Source: Cryomorphaceae bacterium
GTDB lineage: Bacteria > Bacteroidota > Bacteroidia > Flavobacteriales_D > Crocinitomicaceae
Direction of reading: 5' to 3'
DNA: 64,000 bases
NCBI GenBank assembly: GCA_027490665.1
Contig: JAIXXP010000021.1
Location: forward strand, 1-64,000
Every line of letters begins with the position of its first letter. Within the stretch, counting starts at the first letter, position 1. This document shows positions 6,712 to 50,566 of the stretch, in pieces. The notes under the pieces are model-generated. The model had not been told where the DNA came from. It ran no database searches and worked only from the letters and a program-made list of their open reading frames with translations. The position numbers and the translations under genes were made by a program.

Positions 6712-6750
6712 ATATTATCTATAGTCGATATAGATAAAAATATTTGTTTT

Positions 6751-6815
6751 GTTTAAACTTTTTCTTGTTTTGTTAAACAAATAATGTTTAACTTTAACTC
6801 GTAATTGTTAAACAA
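6751..6815 (+). promoter_or_regulatory. Cluster of four TGTT/AACA palindromes before the ECF sigma gene
   Basis: Four related sites lie between tdh and the ECF sigma gene. They are GTTTAAAC (6751-6758); a perfect TTTGTT-A-AACAAA (6769-6781); a weaker TGTT-T-AAC (6785-6792); and TTGTT-A-AACAA (6805-6815), which ends 12 bases before the ATG. Centres are about 20, 14 and 21 bases apart, i.e. roughly 1.5 to 2 helical turns. This looks like an operator array for a dimeric repressor or activator controlling the downstream operon. No regulator gene lies next to it. Confidence 0.65.
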
Positions 6816-6826
6816 AACAACGCACT

Positions 6827-7339
6827 ATGTCTACAATCGAATTCAATGAAGCATTAATTGGTCTAGAAAACAATCTGCAATCTTTTGCACTTTCATTTAC
6901 AAGAAACCGAGAAGACGCAAGGGATTTAACCCAAGAAACCATGCTCAAAGCGATCACGTATCGCAACTATTACACGCCACAGACAAACTTTAAGGCGTGG
7001 GTTTTCACAATTATGCGTAACTTGTTCATCAATCAGTACCGCAGAAGAGTAAAATCGGGTGCCATTTTCGATCACAGCAAAGAAGTTTTCTTGATCGGTA
7101 ACATCCATAGCCACGAAGACAGCGCAATAGAAAAGATTGGTGTAAAAGACATCAACAGACAAATTAACTTATTAGGAGAGGAGTACCAAACGCCTTTTGA
7201 AATGCATTTTCAAGGCTTCAAATACAAAGAGATCGCAGACAAACTAGGTATTCCGATCGGAACCGTGAAAAGCCGGATTTTCATCGCCAGAAAAAAACTG
7301 ATGGAAGCGCTACCGGAATTCGCATTTTCGGCAAATTAA
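6827..7339 (+). CDS. ECF-type RNA polymerase sigma factor heading the carotenoid operon
   Basis: A 170-residue sigma-70 family protein with only regions 2 and 4. Region 2 contains FALSFTRNREDARDLTQETMLKA and FKAWVFTIMRNLFINQYRR. Region 4 contains FEMHFQGFKYKEIADKLGIPIGTVKSRIFIARKKL, a typical helix-turn-helix. No anti-sigma gene lies beside it. It is the first gene of a seven-gene run, with crtI starting three bases after its stop. This fits the known pattern in Bacteroidota of ECF genes leading crtI-crtB operons. Autoregulation through the palindrome cluster upstream is an inference. Confidence 0.92.
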   Translation: MSTIEFNEALIGLENNLQSFALSFTRNREDARDLTQETMLKAITYRNYYTPQTNFKAWVFTIMRNLFINQYRRRVKSGAIFDHSKEVFLIGNIHSHEDSAIEKIGVKDINRQINLLGEEYQTPFEMHFQGFKYKEIADKLGIPIGTVKSRIFIARKKLMEALPEFAFSAN

Positions 7340-7342
7340 TTT

Positions 7343-8812
7343 ATGACAAAAAAAGTACACGTAATAGGCTCGGGTATTTCGAGCCTCTCCACCGCTTCAT
7401 TTCTTGCAAAAGCAGGCTATGACGTCCAAATTTTTGAAAAAAACGCATCAATCGGAGGGCGCGCGCGTCAGTTCGAAACACAAGGTTTTACATTTGACAT
7501 GGGCCCGTCTTGGTACTGGATGCCCGATGTCTTCGAAAAATTCTATCAGCAATTTGGCTACACCACTTCTGATTTTTACGAACTCAAACGCTTAGACCCA
7601 TCTTATCGCGTTTATTGGCCGGATCTAACCTACACCAATGTGCCGGCCAACATGACAGCGCTCGAGGCGTGGTTTGAGTCCTTGGAGCCCGGCAGTGCCA
7701 AAAATCTTCAAGCTTTTTTAAAAGACGCCGCCTATAAATACAAAGTAGGCATGGAGGATCTCGTTTACAAACCAAGTTTGAGCCTCACTGAATTCATTGA
7801 CAGCCGTGTGCTTGGTGGCTTGTTCAAAATGCATTTGTTTTCGTCCTTTTCTGCATTTATCAGAAAGTATTTCAAGCATCCAAAAATATTATCCCTTCTA
7901 GAATTTCCGGTGTTGTTTCTGGGAGCTATGCCCAACGAAACGCCCGCGCTTTATTCCTTAATGAACTACGCGGATATCCAGTTAGGTACATGGTATCCAA
8001 TGAACGGCATGCACGAATTCATCAAAGCTTTTGCGCGCATCGCACAAGAACAAGGCGTCCAAATTCAGACCTCAGCCAATGTGGAGCGCATTGTTATTGA
8101 AAACGGAAAAGCGGTCGGAACCATCGTGAATGGAACCCTTCACCACGCTGACATCGTCATTTCTGGCGCAGACTACGCGCACACCGATCAAAAATTATTG
8201 CAAAAAGATGCCAACTATTCAGACGCTTACTGGGACAAACGCACCATGGCGCCTTCTAGCCTCTTGTTTTATGTAGGCGTCAATAAAAAACTCAACAATT
8301 TAGAGCACCACAACCTCTTTTTTGATGAATCGTTAACCGAACACGGCAAGACCATCTACAAAGACCCAAGTTGGCCTGAAAAACCGCTTTTTTACCTCAG
8401 TGCGCCATCCATGACCGACCCATCGGTTGCGCCCGAAGGTTCGGAAAACTTATTCTTTCTGATTCCTTTAGCCCCAGACCTCAAAGACGACGAAGCCACC
8501 CGTGACAAATACTTCGATATTTTAGTCAAAAGGCTCAAAGATTTAACCGGCAACGACATCAAAGACCATATCGTTTACAAAAAAAGTTTCTGTGTTTCCG
8601 ATTTCAAAAGTGACTACAACGCTTTCAAAGGAAATGCCTACGGTTTAGCGAATACGCTGCTTCAGACTGCCATTCTCAAACCGCGAATGCAACACAAAAA
8701 AATCAAGAACCTATATTATACTGGGCAACTTACCGTACCAGGCCCAGGCGTTCCTCCCTCTATTGTTTCAGGAGAGGTTGTCGCCAAACACATCATTGCA
8801 AAGCACCACTAA
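7343..8812 (+). CDS. crtI: Phytoene desaturase (CrtI family)
   Basis: A 489-residue FAD-dependent carotenoid desaturase. The N-terminal dinucleotide fold is GSGISSLSTASFLAKAGYDV followed by GGRARQFETQGFTFDMGPSWYWMPDVFE. The C-terminal family signature is YYTGQLTVPGPGVPPSIVSG. It introduces double bases of conjugation into phytoene to yield neurosporene or lycopene; the number of steps cannot be read from sequence. It starts three bases after the ECF sigma stop and nine bases before crtB. No lycopene cyclase, hydroxylase or ketolase gene is present in the window, so later pathway steps must be encoded elsewhere if they exist. Confidence 0.95.
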   Translation: MTKKVHVIGSGISSLSTASFLAKAGYDVQIFEKNASIGGRARQFETQGFTFDMGPSWYWMPDVFEKFYQQFGYTTSDFYELKRLDPSYRVYWPDLTYTNVPANMTALEAWFESLEPGSAKNLQAFLKDAAYKYKVGMEDLVYKPSLSLTEFIDSRVLGGLFKMHLFSSFSAFIRKYFKHPKILSLLEFPVLFLGAMPNETPALYSLMNYADIQLGTWYPMNGMHEFIKAFARIAQEQGVQIQTSANVERIVIENGKAVGTIVNGTLHHADIVISGADYAHTDQKLLQKDANYSDAYWDKRTMAPSSLLFYVGVNKKLNNLEHHNLFFDESLTEHGKTIYKDPSWPEKPLFYLSAPSMTDPSVAPEGSENLFFLIPLAPDLKDDEATRDKYFDILVKRLKDLTGNDIKDHIVYKKSFCVSDFKSDYNAFKGNAYGLANTLLQTAILKPRMQHKKIKNLYYTGQLTVPGPGVPPSIVSGEVVAKHIIAKHH

Positions 8813-8821
8813 ACCCATACT

Positions 8822-9658
8822 ATGAAAGCTTTATTCGACAACGTCTGCCAAGAAATGAGCGAGCTCACAACCAAAAGGTACAGCACTTCTTTTTCACTAG
8901 GCATCAGCTTTTTGCACAAAGATTTGCAAAAGCCTATTTATTCGATTTATGGTTTTGTGCGCTTTGCCGATGAAATTGTAGACACCTTCCATGGTTTTGA
9001 CAAAGAAAAATTACTGGCAGACTTCAAAGCACAAACCTATGAAGCGATTGCAGCTGGTATTTCCCTCAACCCAATTTTGAATAGTTTTCAATGGGCGGTT
9101 AATAAATACCAAATTCCGATGGAACTCATCGACACCTTCCTCGATTCCATGGAAATGGACCTTCAAAAACAAACCTACGATCAAGGAAAATACGAAACTT
9201 ACATTTTAGGATCTGCCGAAGTAGTGGGGCTCATGTGTTTGAAAGTTTTTGTCGAAGGCGATCAAACAGCCTACGAAGAGCTCAAACCCTACGCCATGAA
9301 ATTAGGTGCGGCCTTCCAAAAAATCAATTTCTTGCGCGACCTCAAAGCAGATTACCAAGAACTCGGCCGCACATATTTTCCGGGTATCAACTTATCAGAA
9401 TTCAATACTGCACTCAAAAAAGAAATTGAAGCAGATATCGCACTTGATTTCCAAAAAGGCTACGAAGGCATTTTGTTATTGCCGAGAAGTGCGCGTTTTG
9501 GTGTCTATATGGCTTACAAATATTATTTCAAGCTCTTTAATAAGATCAAGCAAACGCCAGCTGAAAACGTGCTCAATGAGCGCATTCGCATTCCAAATTA
9601 CCGCAAAATGCGCATTTTACTCACCTCATATGTGCGCCATAACCTCAATTTGCTTTAA
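8822..9658 (+). CDS. crtB: Phytoene synthase (CrtB family)
   Basis: A 278-residue squalene/phytoene synthase that joins two geranylgeranyl diphosphates to phytoene. The first aspartate-rich motif is RFADEIVD (D50 and D54). The second lies in NFLRDLKADYQELGRTYFPG, matching the family signature. A YSTSFSLG stretch near residue 20 is the usual N-terminal motif. Its TAA stop overlaps the start of idi by one base (TAATG), implying translational coupling. Substrate supply by idi and desaturation by crtI give a complete route from isopentenyl diphosphate building blocks to a coloured polyene, provided a prenyltransferase is supplied elsewhere. Confidence 0.95.
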   Translation: MKALFDNVCQEMSELTTKRYSTSFSLGISFLHKDLQKPIYSIYGFVRFADEIVDTFHGFDKEKLLADFKAQTYEAIAAGISLNPILNSFQWAVNKYQIPMELIDTFLDSMEMDLQKQTYDQGKYETYILGSAEVVGLMCLKVFVEGDQTAYEELKPYAMKLGAAFQKINFLRDLKADYQELGRTYFPGINLSEFNTALKKEIEADIALDFQKGYEGILLLPRSARFGVYMAYKYYFKLFNKIKQTPAENVLNERIRIPNYRKMRILLTSYVRHNLNLL

Positions 9659-10194
9659 TGGCCGAAGAATACGTTATATTAGTCAATAACGACGACGACG
9701 AAATTGGTCAGCTCGAAAAAATGGAGGCCCACAGAAGGGGCGAACTCCATCGCGCATTTTCTGTATTGATCTTTAATGCAGCCGGTGAACTCCTACTCCA
9801 ACAGCGCGCCGCTCACAAATACCACTCTCCTATGCTCTGGACCAACGCTTGTTGCAGCCACCAACGCCCTGGAGAAACAACTTTAATGGCCGCCGAACGC
9901 AGACTACAAGAAGAAATGGGCATGTCAGCACAATTGAAAGCAGCCTTTCATTTCATTTACAAGGCCAAACTCGATCAAGGACTTACCGAACACGAGCTCG
10001 ATCATGTCGTTTTTGGTTATTCTGATCAAGCACCTCAAATCAATACCGAAGAAGTAGCCGCCTATAAATGGATTGGCCTTTCAGAACTCCTTCAAGACCT
10101 AGAAAATAATCCACAAGACTACACCGCTTGGTTTCAAATTCTATTGAACCAGCATGTAGACGCAATTGCAAAAGCAGCAAATGAAAGTATGTAG
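9658..10194 (+). CDS. idi: Isopentenyl-diphosphate delta-isomerase, type 1
   Basis: A 178-residue Nudix-fold isomerase that interconverts isopentenyl and dimethylallyl diphosphate. Visible sites are the metal histidines H25, H31 and H68, the catalytic cysteine in TNACCSHQRPGE (C65), the Nudix-like helix ERRLQEEMGM, and ELDHVVFGY with the catalytic Glu. The start overlaps the crtB stop by one base, and the end overlaps the pterin synthase gene by 14 bases. Its presence in this operon suggests that isoprenoid flux is raised together with carotenoid synthesis. Confidence 0.96.
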   Translation: MAEEYVILVNNDDDEIGQLEKMEAHRRGELHRAFSVLIFNAAGELLLQQRAAHKYHSPMLWTNACCSHQRPGETTLMAAERRLQEEMGMSAQLKAAFHFIYKAKLDQGLTEHELDHVVFGYSDQAPQINTEEVAAYKWIGLSELLQDLENNPQDYTAWFQILLNQHVDAIAKAANESM

Positions 10195-10585
10195 AAGAGC
10201 GACCTTCAATGCGGCGCATCGCTTGTTCAGACCTGATTGGTCCGACGAAAAAAACAATGCCATTTTTGGCAAATGCAACAATCCTAACTTTCATGGTCAC
10301 AACTACACTTTAGAAGTGTGGATAGACGGTGAAATTGACCCAGAAACAGGCTACCTCATCGACCTCAAGTTGGTCAAAGACCTCATCGGGTCAGAAGTTC
10401 AAGACCGTTTTGACCACCGAAATTTGAACTTAGATTGTCCTGAGTTCGCCAACTTGAACCCAACTGCTGAAAACATCGCGGTGGTTATTTGGAATCTACT
10501 CCGAGACAAACTAGATGCAAAATATGGCCTAAGTGTCAAGCTCTGGGAAACCCAAAACAACATCATTGAATACGACGGCAAATGA
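10181..10585 (+). CDS. 6-pyruvoyl-tetrahydropterin synthase-like protein (biopterin type)
   Basis: A 134-residue PTPS/QueD-fold protein starting at the ATG at 10181, inside the end of idi. Zinc ligands are H13 (FNAAH), H38 and H40, with the catalytic Cys at C32. The motif is CNNPNFHGHNY, i.e. C-x5-HGH. That spacing matches animal PTPS, which makes 6-pyruvoyl-tetrahydropterin on the way to tetrahydrobiopterin; QueD enzymes have a shorter C-x3-HGH. The stop overlaps the photolyase start (ATGA). A pterin product could serve as antenna or cofactor for the photolyase or as cofactor for an aromatic amino-acid hydroxylase; both are inferences. A QueD-like role cannot be excluded. Confidence 0.82.
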   Translation: MKVCRRATFNAAHRLFRPDWSDEKNNAIFGKCNNPNFHGHNYTLEVWIDGEIDPETGYLIDLKLVKDLIGSEVQDRFDHRNLNLDCPEFANLNPTAENIAVVIWNLLRDKLDAKYGLSVKLWETQNNIIEYDGK

Positions 10586-11880
10586 GTACTGCCCTTTTTT
10601 GGCACCGCCGCGACCTCAGAATAAGCGACAACGCCGGCCTCTATAAAGCACTGAAGCAAAGCGCTCAGGTTATTCCTGTTTTTGTTTTTGACAGCACCAT
10701 TTTAGGTTTGCTACCTAAAAACGACCAGCGCGTTTTGTTTATCCATCAAGAAATCCAAAAATTAAAGGCAAGCTATCGCGCCTTGGGTTCCGATTTAGCA
10801 GTAACTTACGGTGATCCCAAAGCAGAAATTCTGAGCTTGGCCAAAAAGTTTGGGGTCAGTAGGGTTTATACCAACAGAGATTACGAACCCAATGCCATCG
10901 CCCGCGATCAATATCTTTTTGACCAGCTTCAAAAGGAGCAAATAGAATTTATTGGGGCAAAAGACCAAGTGATTTTCGAAAAAAATGAAATCACTAAAGA
11001 CGACGGCCTTCCCTACACTATTTATACGCCTTATGCCCGCAAGTGGAAGGCCAAACTCACCGACTACCATTTCAAAGCATATCCGACAGAAAAATACTTT
11101 TCCAATTTACATGCGTTCCAAACTGAGCCTCTTATTTCACTTCAAGAAATGGGTTTTGAGCAGCAACACTTTCAGCCTTTTCCAGCGAGCGAAACACCAA
11201 GTGTAATCATTCAGAAATACCATGAGCAGCGCGATATACCAGCTGTATTAGGGACATCTCGACTGAGTTTGCACCTGCGTTTTGGTACAATTTCTATACG
11301 TTCATTAGCAAAAGAAGCCAAGGCGCTCAATGAAAAATACCTCAATGAACTCATTTGGCGCGACTTCTACCAAGCCATTTTGTTTCATTTTCCACAGACC
11401 GTTGGGCACGCCTTCAAACCAGCATACGACCGCATTATTTGGGAGAACAACGAAGCAGATTTTACTGCTTGGTGCGAGGGCAAAACGGGTTACCCGCTGG
11501 TAGACGCCGGTATGCGTGAGCTCAATGAAACAGGCTTTATGCACAACCGCGTCAGAATGGTGGTGGCGAGTTTTTTAACCAAACATTTACTCATCGACTG
11601 GCGCTGGGGAGAACGCTATTTTGCCGAAAAACTCCTCGACTTTGAACTCGCAAGCAATATTGGTGGCTGGCAATGGGCCGCAGGCTGCGGTTGTGACGCC
11701 GCACCATATTTTCGTGTGTTTAACCCCGAGGCCCAACAAAAGAAATTCGATCCAAAGTTTACATACATTAAAAAATGGGTGCCCGAATACGGAACACCAA
11801 CCTACGCCCAGCCTATTGTCGACCACAAAATGGCACGCGAACGCGTCCTTTCTCGATTCAAAACCGCCTTACAACCATGA
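10582..11880 (+). CDS. phr: Deoxyribodipyrimidine photolyase / cryptochrome family (class I CPD-like)
   Basis: A 432-residue flavoprotein. The N-terminal antenna domain begins ALFWHRRDLRISDNAGL. The C-terminal FAD domain contains TSRLSLHLRFGTIS, WRDFY, TGYPLVDAGMRELNETGFMHNR and NIGGWQWAAGCGCDAAPYFR. The electron-transfer tryptophans equivalent to E. coli W306, W359 and W382 are W287, W340 and W363, and the flavin-N5 asparagine (E. coli N378) is N359. A repair enzyme that reverses cyclobutane pyrimidine dimers with blue light is therefore the best call. It shares ATGA overlaps with both neighbours. Pairing with carotenoid genes fits a light-protection operon. Confidence 0.93.
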   Translation: MSTALFWHRRDLRISDNAGLYKALKQSAQVIPVFVFDSTILGLLPKNDQRVLFIHQEIQKLKASYRALGSDLAVTYGDPKAEILSLAKKFGVSRVYTNRDYEPNAIARDQYLFDQLQKEQIEFIGAKDQVIFEKNEITKDDGLPYTIYTPYARKWKAKLTDYHFKAYPTEKYFSNLHAFQTEPLISLQEMGFEQQHFQPFPASETPSVIIQKYHEQRDIPAVLGTSRLSLHLRFGTISIRSLAKEAKALNEKYLNELIWRDFYQAILFHFPQTVGHAFKPAYDRIIWENNEADFTAWCEGKTGYPLVDAGMRELNETGFMHNRVRMVVASFLTKHLLIDWRWGERYFAEKLLDFELASNIGGWQWAAGCGCDAAPYFRVFNPEAQQKKFDPKFTYIKKWVPEYGTPTYAQPIVDHKMARERVLSRFKTALQP

Positions 11881-50118: not shown

Positions 50119-50566
50119 TGTCTAAATCACCCATTACTTCATCCGCTAAATCAGCGAAATCTGCCATGTTGCCTTCGATCATTTCGAAGTACTTAGACTT
50201 ATCCCAGATTTCAATGCGGTCATTGTAGGCAATAAGCATTACCTCAGCAACCAACCCTACCCGCTCCATTAAAGCAGCAGGAACCAAAATACGACCAGCG
50301 TTATCAAGAGCAACCTGCTTGGCGCCTTGATGAAACAACCTGTAGAACATTCGGTTTTTGGGTTTAAACAAGTTCATTTTTGAAAGCTTCTGACTGATGC
50401 GTTCCCAATCTGAAAGTGGGAATAAGGTCAAGCAATCTTCAAAACCCTTGTTGAGCATGAAATCGCGTTGAGAAACAGCAGGCAATTGTTTGCGCAAACC
50501 AGATGGAAAGAGGAAGCGCCCCTTATCATCCATTTTTACCTCAAATTCACCTACTAGTCCTGACAT
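50108..50566 (-). CDS. mraZ: MraZ transcriptional regulator of the dcw cluster
   Basis: A 152-residue protein with two SpoVT-AbrB repeats: GEFEVKMDDKGRFLFPSGLRKQL and VALDNAGRILVPAALMERVGL. In E. coli it binds TGGG-type direct repeats upstream of its own gene and represses the dcw genes. Repeats of this style with a 10-base period lie just upstream here (50597-50615). It is the first gene of the cluster. An acidic C-terminal tail follows the second repeat (DLADEVMGDLDNED). Confidence 0.96.
   Translation of the reverse strand: MSGLVGEFEVKMDDKGRFLFPSGLRKQLPAVSQRDFMLNKGFEDCLTLFPLSDWERISQKLSKMNLFKPKNRMFYRLFHQGAKQVALDNAGRILVPAALMERVGLVAEVMLIAYNDRIEIWDKSKYFEMIEGNMADFADLADEVMGDLDNED

Follow-up and report, generated by a model that had tools for sequence, protein, structure and literature searches.

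Two interrupted dyads in front of an ECF sigma factor-crtI operon as a candidate operator of a CarH/LitR-type photoreceptor in a Cryomorphaceae bacterium

The array that precedes the ECF-type sigma factor gene of a putative light-induced carotenoid operon in Cryomorphaceae bacterium (assembly GCA_027490665.1) is made of two copies of a 30-bp interrupted dyad, TGTTTAA-N16-TTAAACA, and the four short palindromes described earlier at this place are the half-sites of these two copies. We consider it probable, at odds of roughly four to one, that the array is the doubled operator of a CarH/LitR-type regulator encoded in the same genome, which would act as an adenosylcobalamin (AdoCbl)-bound repressor in the dark and would be released by light. 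The stretch analyzed, from here on the window, comprises 64,000 nucleotides; labels with G, C, and L are our own for genomes (G000 is the genome under study), contigs, and loci.

Two interrupted dyads in front of the ECF gene

The original prediction, made from the window alone, had described four separate, helically phased palindromes with centers about 20, 14, and 21 bases apart. All four elements are present where they had been placed (GTTTAAAC at 6751-6758, TTTGTTAAACAAA at 6769-6781, TGTTTAAC at 6785-6792, and TTGTTAAACAA at 6805-6815), with centers 20.5, 13.5, and 21.5 bases apart, but the division into four phased palindromes had to be given up. The 14-base step does not correspond to an integral number of helical turns, and conservation among relatives revealed directed half-sites, TGTTTAA (F) and TTAAACA (R), which follow each other in the array in the order F-R-F-R. 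Because the F-to-R distance is fixed while the dyad-to-dyad distance varies, the unit is a 30-bp dyad, present in two copies (dyads A and B, 35 bp apart and 65 bp in all; Table 1). Further, R-type sites in relatives, including the TGTTAAACA-type sites of same-genus promoters, often lose the outer TGT and keep TTAAACA as well as the F-R distance, which argues against four separate palindromes. The TnnACA core is found in the array at 6774 and 6809 (plus strand), and TGTnnA is found at 6750, 6771, 6785, and 6806.

Two exact dyads within 115 nt are not expected by chance: when the 115-nt intergenic stretch was dinucleotide-shuffled 20,000 times, an exact dyad arose in one shuffle and two in none, and the observed three copies of GTTWAAC were likewise reached in none. 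The original prediction that the window holds no other such array was borne out, as no dyad with up to one mismatch besides A and B was detected in the window; a site with two mismatches lies at 50341. In the whole genome it is only the spaced dyad that is enriched. Pairs of GTTWAAC 6-36 nt apart occur at 4 places (two of them this array) versus 31 for the reversed-pattern control, and TGTTTAACAA occurs 9 times versus 28; both were rejected as enriched patterns.

Table 1. Features of the operon, the dyads, and the candidate regulator (window positions unless a contig or locus is named)
Feature	Position	Strand	Remarks
Dyad A, TGTTTAA-N16-TTAAACA	6750..6779		exact; half-sites 6750-6756 and 6773-6779
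Dyad B, TGTTTAA-N16-TTAAACA	6785..6814		exact; half-sites 6785-6791 and 6808-6814; closest to ECF gene
ECF-type sigma factor gene	6827..7339	+	first gene of the putative light-induced operon
crtI, phytoene desaturase/3,4-desaturase	7343..8812	+	NCBIfam CrtID above cut-off
crtB-like squalene/phytoene synthase gene	8822..9658	+	
idi, isopentenyl-diphosphate isomerase (Nudix)	9658..10194	+	
6-Pyruvoyl-tetrahydropterin synthase (PTPS) family gene	10166..10585	+	listed start TTG; true start may lie further in
DNA photolyase/cryptochrome family gene	10582..11880	+	
Candidate regulator gene	G000:C29:11238-12104		contig other than the window's
Dyad before fasciclin-domain gene	L130 1205-1234 (G000:C28)		gene identified by Pfam

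We compared the DNA upstream of ECF orthologues (E <= 1e-30), which were present in 46 of 60 genomes, the one under study included, and mapped half-sites with up to one mismatch per half and with TGT and ACA kept intact. A start-to-start F-R distance of exactly 23 was present at least once in all 46 ECF promoters, so the conservation upstream of orthologous operons on which the original prediction had staked itself was indeed seen. Thirty-three of the 35 same-genus promoters have two dyads, 33-35 bases apart, and the two with a single dyad are L030, where the contig ends, and L028, which has a second pair at distance 24; among the 11 promoters from other families, seven have one dyad and four have two, at varied distances. 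Other F-R distances were scattered, and the commonest of them, 37 (in 16 same-genus promoters), arises because the half-sites belong to different dyads. Across the 60 genomes, the exact dyad occurs in 107 copies in 49 genomes (the sum for the forward pattern, in which two copies in G007 are probably one place on two contig ends), compared with 6 for the reversed pattern and 5, in 5 genomes, for an N15 spacer, the only alternative spacer compared genome-wide. Two inverted half-sites at a fixed spacing, as in MerR-type operators, are thus found here.

The candidate regulator and its association with the dyad

A MerR_1 family search of the genome, which is 92% complete, gave two matches, one of which has both MerR_1 and B12-binding_2 above cut-off, and its B12-binding domain (30.4 bits, E 4e-7) falls just below the Pfam cut-off of 32.1. 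The top solved-structure matches of this candidate regulator are 3whp (E 6e-19) and CarH 5c8d (E 7e-19), and, when aligned with 3whp, it keeps W-x9-E-H and D-x-H-x-x-G. We take W-x9-E-H together with (D/E)-x-H-x-x-G to be the CarH-type photosensor signature. The genome also has a cob(I)alamin adenosyltransferase gene for cofactor supply. In the regulators at L122 1541-2434 and L127 3108-4001, the E-H pair reads E-R, which may alter their photochemistry.

The gene order around the dyad differs between groups. In none of the 35 same-genus ECF-positive genomes do the ECF and regulator genes adjoin (three of these genomes have no regulator match), and no operator was detected on the regulator gene itself in 30 of 30 own-genus loci, whereas relatives do have one. 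In 10 of the 11 ECF-positive genomes from other families, the regulator gene directly precedes the ECF gene and shares its strand; in the remaining one (G045) the two are on different contigs. In four genomes that have no ECF orthologue, the order is regulator, dyad, and crtI, with an exact dyad at L122 and L126 and one mismatch at L127 and L141; in 4 of the 8 loci fetched from ECF-less or unlinked genomes (L125, L138, L139, and L140) no dyad was found at the regulator locus.

We also examined 80 loci from named records, mostly from flavobacteria, which were chosen by the regulator protein as the best 80 of at least 571 matches to alignment A2. A2 consists of 11 sequences, some of which were first met beside dyads; the query is hence not fully independent of the motif, unlike the choice of loci. 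In these best 80 of at least 571, crtI is the next gene after merR in 78, and none was found in the other two. We then applied a weight matrix trained solely on the 61 distinct ECF dyads of the own genus, with the outer 12 columns of each side. The top match fell before merR in 48 of the best 80 of at least 571 loci and between merR and crtI in 28, i.e. in 76 of 80 versus 3.8 expected from length; 32 of the 76 top matches score at least as high as the weakest training site and the others lower, with negative scores at L219 and L242. When one mismatch per half was allowed, the exact spacing was found within 150 nt behind merR in 34 of the best 80 of at least 571 (0.22 in shuffles) and spacing 24 in 5; upstream of merR in the same best 80 of at least 571, an F-R distance of 23 was found in 17 loci and one of 33 in 18.

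Some side observations concern these loci. At many sites upstream of merR (L193, L197, L201, L217, L231, and others), the right half-site reads ATGAACA, 9 nt before the match start. As ATGAACA is the merR start codon with the next bases (Met-Asn), the conservation of the right half may be partly coding, and in many named loci the operator seems to extend into merR as far as its start codon and first residues. By eye, the merR promoters of L217, L231, and L233 have a second element, AAATTTTAAC, whose start lies 46 nt ahead of the dyad's TTTGTTTAAC. Two flavobacterial-type merR loci, L202 and L220, are in records titled as Rhizobium and Bifidobacterium MAGs, which are probably mislabeled or contaminated bins.

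The position of the dyad relative to promoter elements bears on what it might be. In 29 of the 34 named merR-crtI dyads (among the best 80 of at least 571 loci), the right half overlaps TAnnTTTG, which is described as the Bacteroidetes -7 box (PMC7366714). The same overlap is seen in 4 of the 11 other-family ECF promoters and in none of the 35 own-genus ECF promoters. The ECF sigma factor itself could, in principle, recognize the dyads in an autoregulated promoter, as they lie just upstream of its gene in all 46 promoters and crtI follows that gene immediately. We regard this as very unlikely: dyads also precede crtI in genomes that have no ECF orthologue and where merR directly precedes crtI, they are symmetric whereas a sigma factor site need not be, and the overlap in 29 of 34 (best 80 of at least 571) is with a housekeeping -7 box. 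Still less credible is an RNA attenuator in the ECF mRNA leader. Inverted repeats near a start codon are what such an element would look like, but the arms are short and A/U-rich, and in relatives the dyad spans the -7 box and reaches or enters the start codon of crtI or merR, so that much of it would not be transcribed.

We next considered co-occurrence in 395 genomes sampled from the phylum, in which the regulator was called with A2 at E <= 1e-30. The exact dyad is present in 67 genomes (58 of them from the window's class) and the regulator in 84; 60 genomes have both, 7 have the dyad alone, and 24 have the regulator alone. Regulator-positive genomes contain 168 dyad sites and the 311 regulator-negative genomes contain 7, whereas the reversed control gave 15 and 11 sites, respectively, at one site per genome. 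The Fisher p-value is no fair measure of this comparison, given the kinship among the genomes and their unequal base composition. That another conserved regulator (e.g. of the AraC, CRP, or two-component type) reads the dyad and merely shares the targets of the MerR protein would fit the absence of this protein from 7 of the 67 dyad-positive genomes. However, 7 sites in 311 regulator-negative genomes do not exceed the 11 of the reversed control, the top matrix match falls on the merR promoter or merR-crtI gap in 76 of the best 80 of at least 571 loci, and the half-site is the published CarH core; we therefore see very little likelihood in it. Against the CarH-type regulator itself counts that 24 of the 84 regulator-positive genomes have no exact dyad, as do the four fetched regulator loci without a dyad, the F-R distance of 33 that is as frequent as 23 upstream of merR (best 80 of at least 571 loci), and, in the own genus, the regulator gene without an operator and the ECF promoters without TAnnTTTG on the right half. 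Overall, the original proposal of a MerR/LitR-type light regulator is well supported by gene order, by the loci chosen by protein (best 80 of at least 571), by the co-occurrence in 395 genomes, and by the other candidate targets described below.

Other candidate target genes

For the longer pattern TTTGTTTAA-N16-TTAAACAAA, the best sites in the genome under study lie in front of the ECF operon (0 and 2 mismatches) and of genes for a fasciclin-domain protein (no mismatch), GTP cyclohydrolase I (1 mismatch), a YceI-like protein (2), and a rhodopsin (2). The rhodopsin site is a degenerate dyad (L146 1503-1532, G000:C91) 86 nt upstream of the gene. With up to three mismatches, the longer pattern gave 10 sites versus 17 for the reversed control (counts not split by mismatch number); sites with three mismatches were thus treated as chance, and, because the total of 10 does not exceed 17, those with two rest on their neighbors and on relatives and not on statistics.

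Of ten fetched same-genus sites away from the ECF gene, a subset, eight precede fasciclin-type genes, and the remaining two lie before a rhodopsin gene (L134) and a folE-type gene (L135). The eight fasciclin-type products are secreted (L128-L133, L136, and L137; L130 was assigned by Pfam and the others by eye) and might be light-induced carotenoid-binding or adhesion proteins. The fasciclin domains of algal AstaP bind carotenoids and a cyanobacterial homologue did not (PMC10147662), and for this reason a pigment role of the fasciclin genes here is no more than a guess. Rhodopsin genes with an exact dyad in front of them are found in L134, L158, L161, and L165.

A scan of the phylum provided 30 loci, one per genome. 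Twenty-two of them have neighboring ECF (9), merR-crtI (4), rhodopsin (3), fasciclin (5), or pterin (1) genes, named by similarity to a small reference set; five more have a photolyase-related second gene (L180), phytochrome/heme oxygenase (L179), or, by eye, dehydrogenase-type genes (L173, L176, and L177); and the neighbors in L152, L168, and L172 look unrelated. The dyad marks a common set of putative light-response genes (pigment, rhodopsin, pterin, and fasciclin) in many Bacteroidota. Two further arrangements, with genes named by eye, are unusual. At L124 2942-3025 (G052:C49), an exact dyad and one with a mismatch lie between a pnp-like gene and the gene for an rpoD-like sigma factor, which suggests that a sigma factor of the primary type is controlled by light in G052. 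At L156 and L157, a MutY-like gene takes the place of crtI behind the ECF gene and its dyad, as if the ECF gene were uncoupled from the carotenoid genes.

Proposed mechanism and comparison with known operators

In the mechanism we favor, the AdoCbl-loaded regulator would occupy each 30-bp dyad, an inverted repeat of TnnACA half-sites, in the dark, and, with the dyads 35 bp apart, two dimers or one tetramer could lie side by side. The bound regulator would block the promoter of the ECF-crtI-crtB-idi-PTPS-photolyase operon; light would break the cobalt-carbon bond, the regulator would leave, and the operon would be expressed. The ECF sigma factor could form a second step that relays the signal further, and the doubling of the dyad, the rule in the genus, may provide cooperative, tighter repression. 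We consider it unlikely that the MerR protein binds the dyad and activates, in the manner of classical MerR proteins, or that it is independent of B12, as CarA is, and senses light via another partner. MerR proteins are often activators (PMC9478572) and bind palindromic sites as dimers (PMC8156234), and CarA binds its operator, of proposed inverted repeats, with or without B12 (PMC9304148); further, R replaces the H of the E-H pair in L122 and L127. Against this, the regulator of the genome under study keeps the aligned residues, the adenosyltransferase gene is present, and the coverage of the -7 box in 29 of 34 merR-crtI dyads (best 80 of at least 571 loci) suits repression.

More broadly, we lean toward a B12 photoreceptor regulon that is widespread in this genome's class of Bacteroidota and has one inverted-repeat operator for carotenoid, rhodopsin, pterin/photolyase, and fasciclin genes, often with an ECF relay, in which CarH-type proteins would bind inverted half-sites, whereas the solved CarH binds tandem repeats. 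CarH serves as a model photoreceptor and in optogenetics, and a specific 30-bp site makes the DNA-binding plasticity of its family directly testable. The same site would give lists of likely light-regulated genes in Bacteroidota genomes, and dyads before rhodopsin genes predict that rhodopsin is controlled by light and vitamin B12. In the literature as far as it was accessible, operators of the family are described for Thermus, Bacillus, myxobacteria, and Pseudomonas, and a search that left most subscription papers and bioRxiv outside returned none from Bacteroidota and no mention of this motif; an earlier description is possible. A study of a Chryseobacterium with light-induced carotenoids and crt genes (Chryseobacterium lacus YLOS41) reports that genes of a car or lit operon were not detected and postulates a new light regulator (PMC7064467).

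We compared the arrangement of TnnACA cores with that in known operators. Inverted cores at distance 24 are found in 46 of 46 ECF promoters and, in the best 80 of at least 571 loci, in 73 regions upstream of merR and 31 behind it. Direct repeats of the core at 11 bp are rare (4 of 46 ECF promoters; one region upstream of merR and one behind it in the best 80 of at least 571), and tandem 11-bp CarH repeats were rejected as the operator unit of the ECF promoters. Direct repeats 21 bases apart are frequent (37 of 46 ECF promoters; 15 regions upstream of merR and 21 behind it in the best 80 of at least 571), since R sites written TGTTAAACA hold the core in both directions.

In Thermus thermophilus and Bacillus megaterium, the CarH/LitR operators consist of 11-bp direct repeats in tandem, nnnnTnnACAn (PMC9304148). 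They share with the present system a regulator family with MerR and B12-binding domains, the TnnACA core, a carotenoid target, and, in many relatives here, an operator that would overlap the promoter; unlike those direct repeats, the half-sites here are inverted, as TGTnnA-N18-TnnACA at distance 24 (PMC9304148). The original suggestion of an undescribed motif unlike known operators hence stands well for the geometry and fails for the half-site, which agrees with the published CarH core TnnACA (PMC9304148). The CarA/CarH operator of Myxococcus xanthus is described as about 55 bp with two inverted repeats for two CarA dimers, and an ECF sigma factor, CarQ, takes part in the light response (PMC8156234 and PMC9304148). 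The side-by-side arrangement of two inverted repeats (65 bp here) and the carotenoid operon are alike; unlike here, the M. xanthus operator has also been read as direct repeats, and the gene layout differs. Photolyase is among the Pseudomonas targets of class II LitR proteins. The sites of two of these, PplR1 and PmlR2, are given as T(G/A)TACA-N12-TGTA(C/T)A, i.e. as paired TnnACA-type half-sites, and the pterin gene folM is light-induced there (PMC9758184). They differ from the dyad in that the half-sites face the opposite way (TnnACA first), the spacer is 12, the half-site is TGTACA, and PmlR2 uses a LOV partner (PMC9758184). Judged from its sequence, the array would thus act like a CarH operator with a CarH half-site, but one whose half-sites are not direct repeats.
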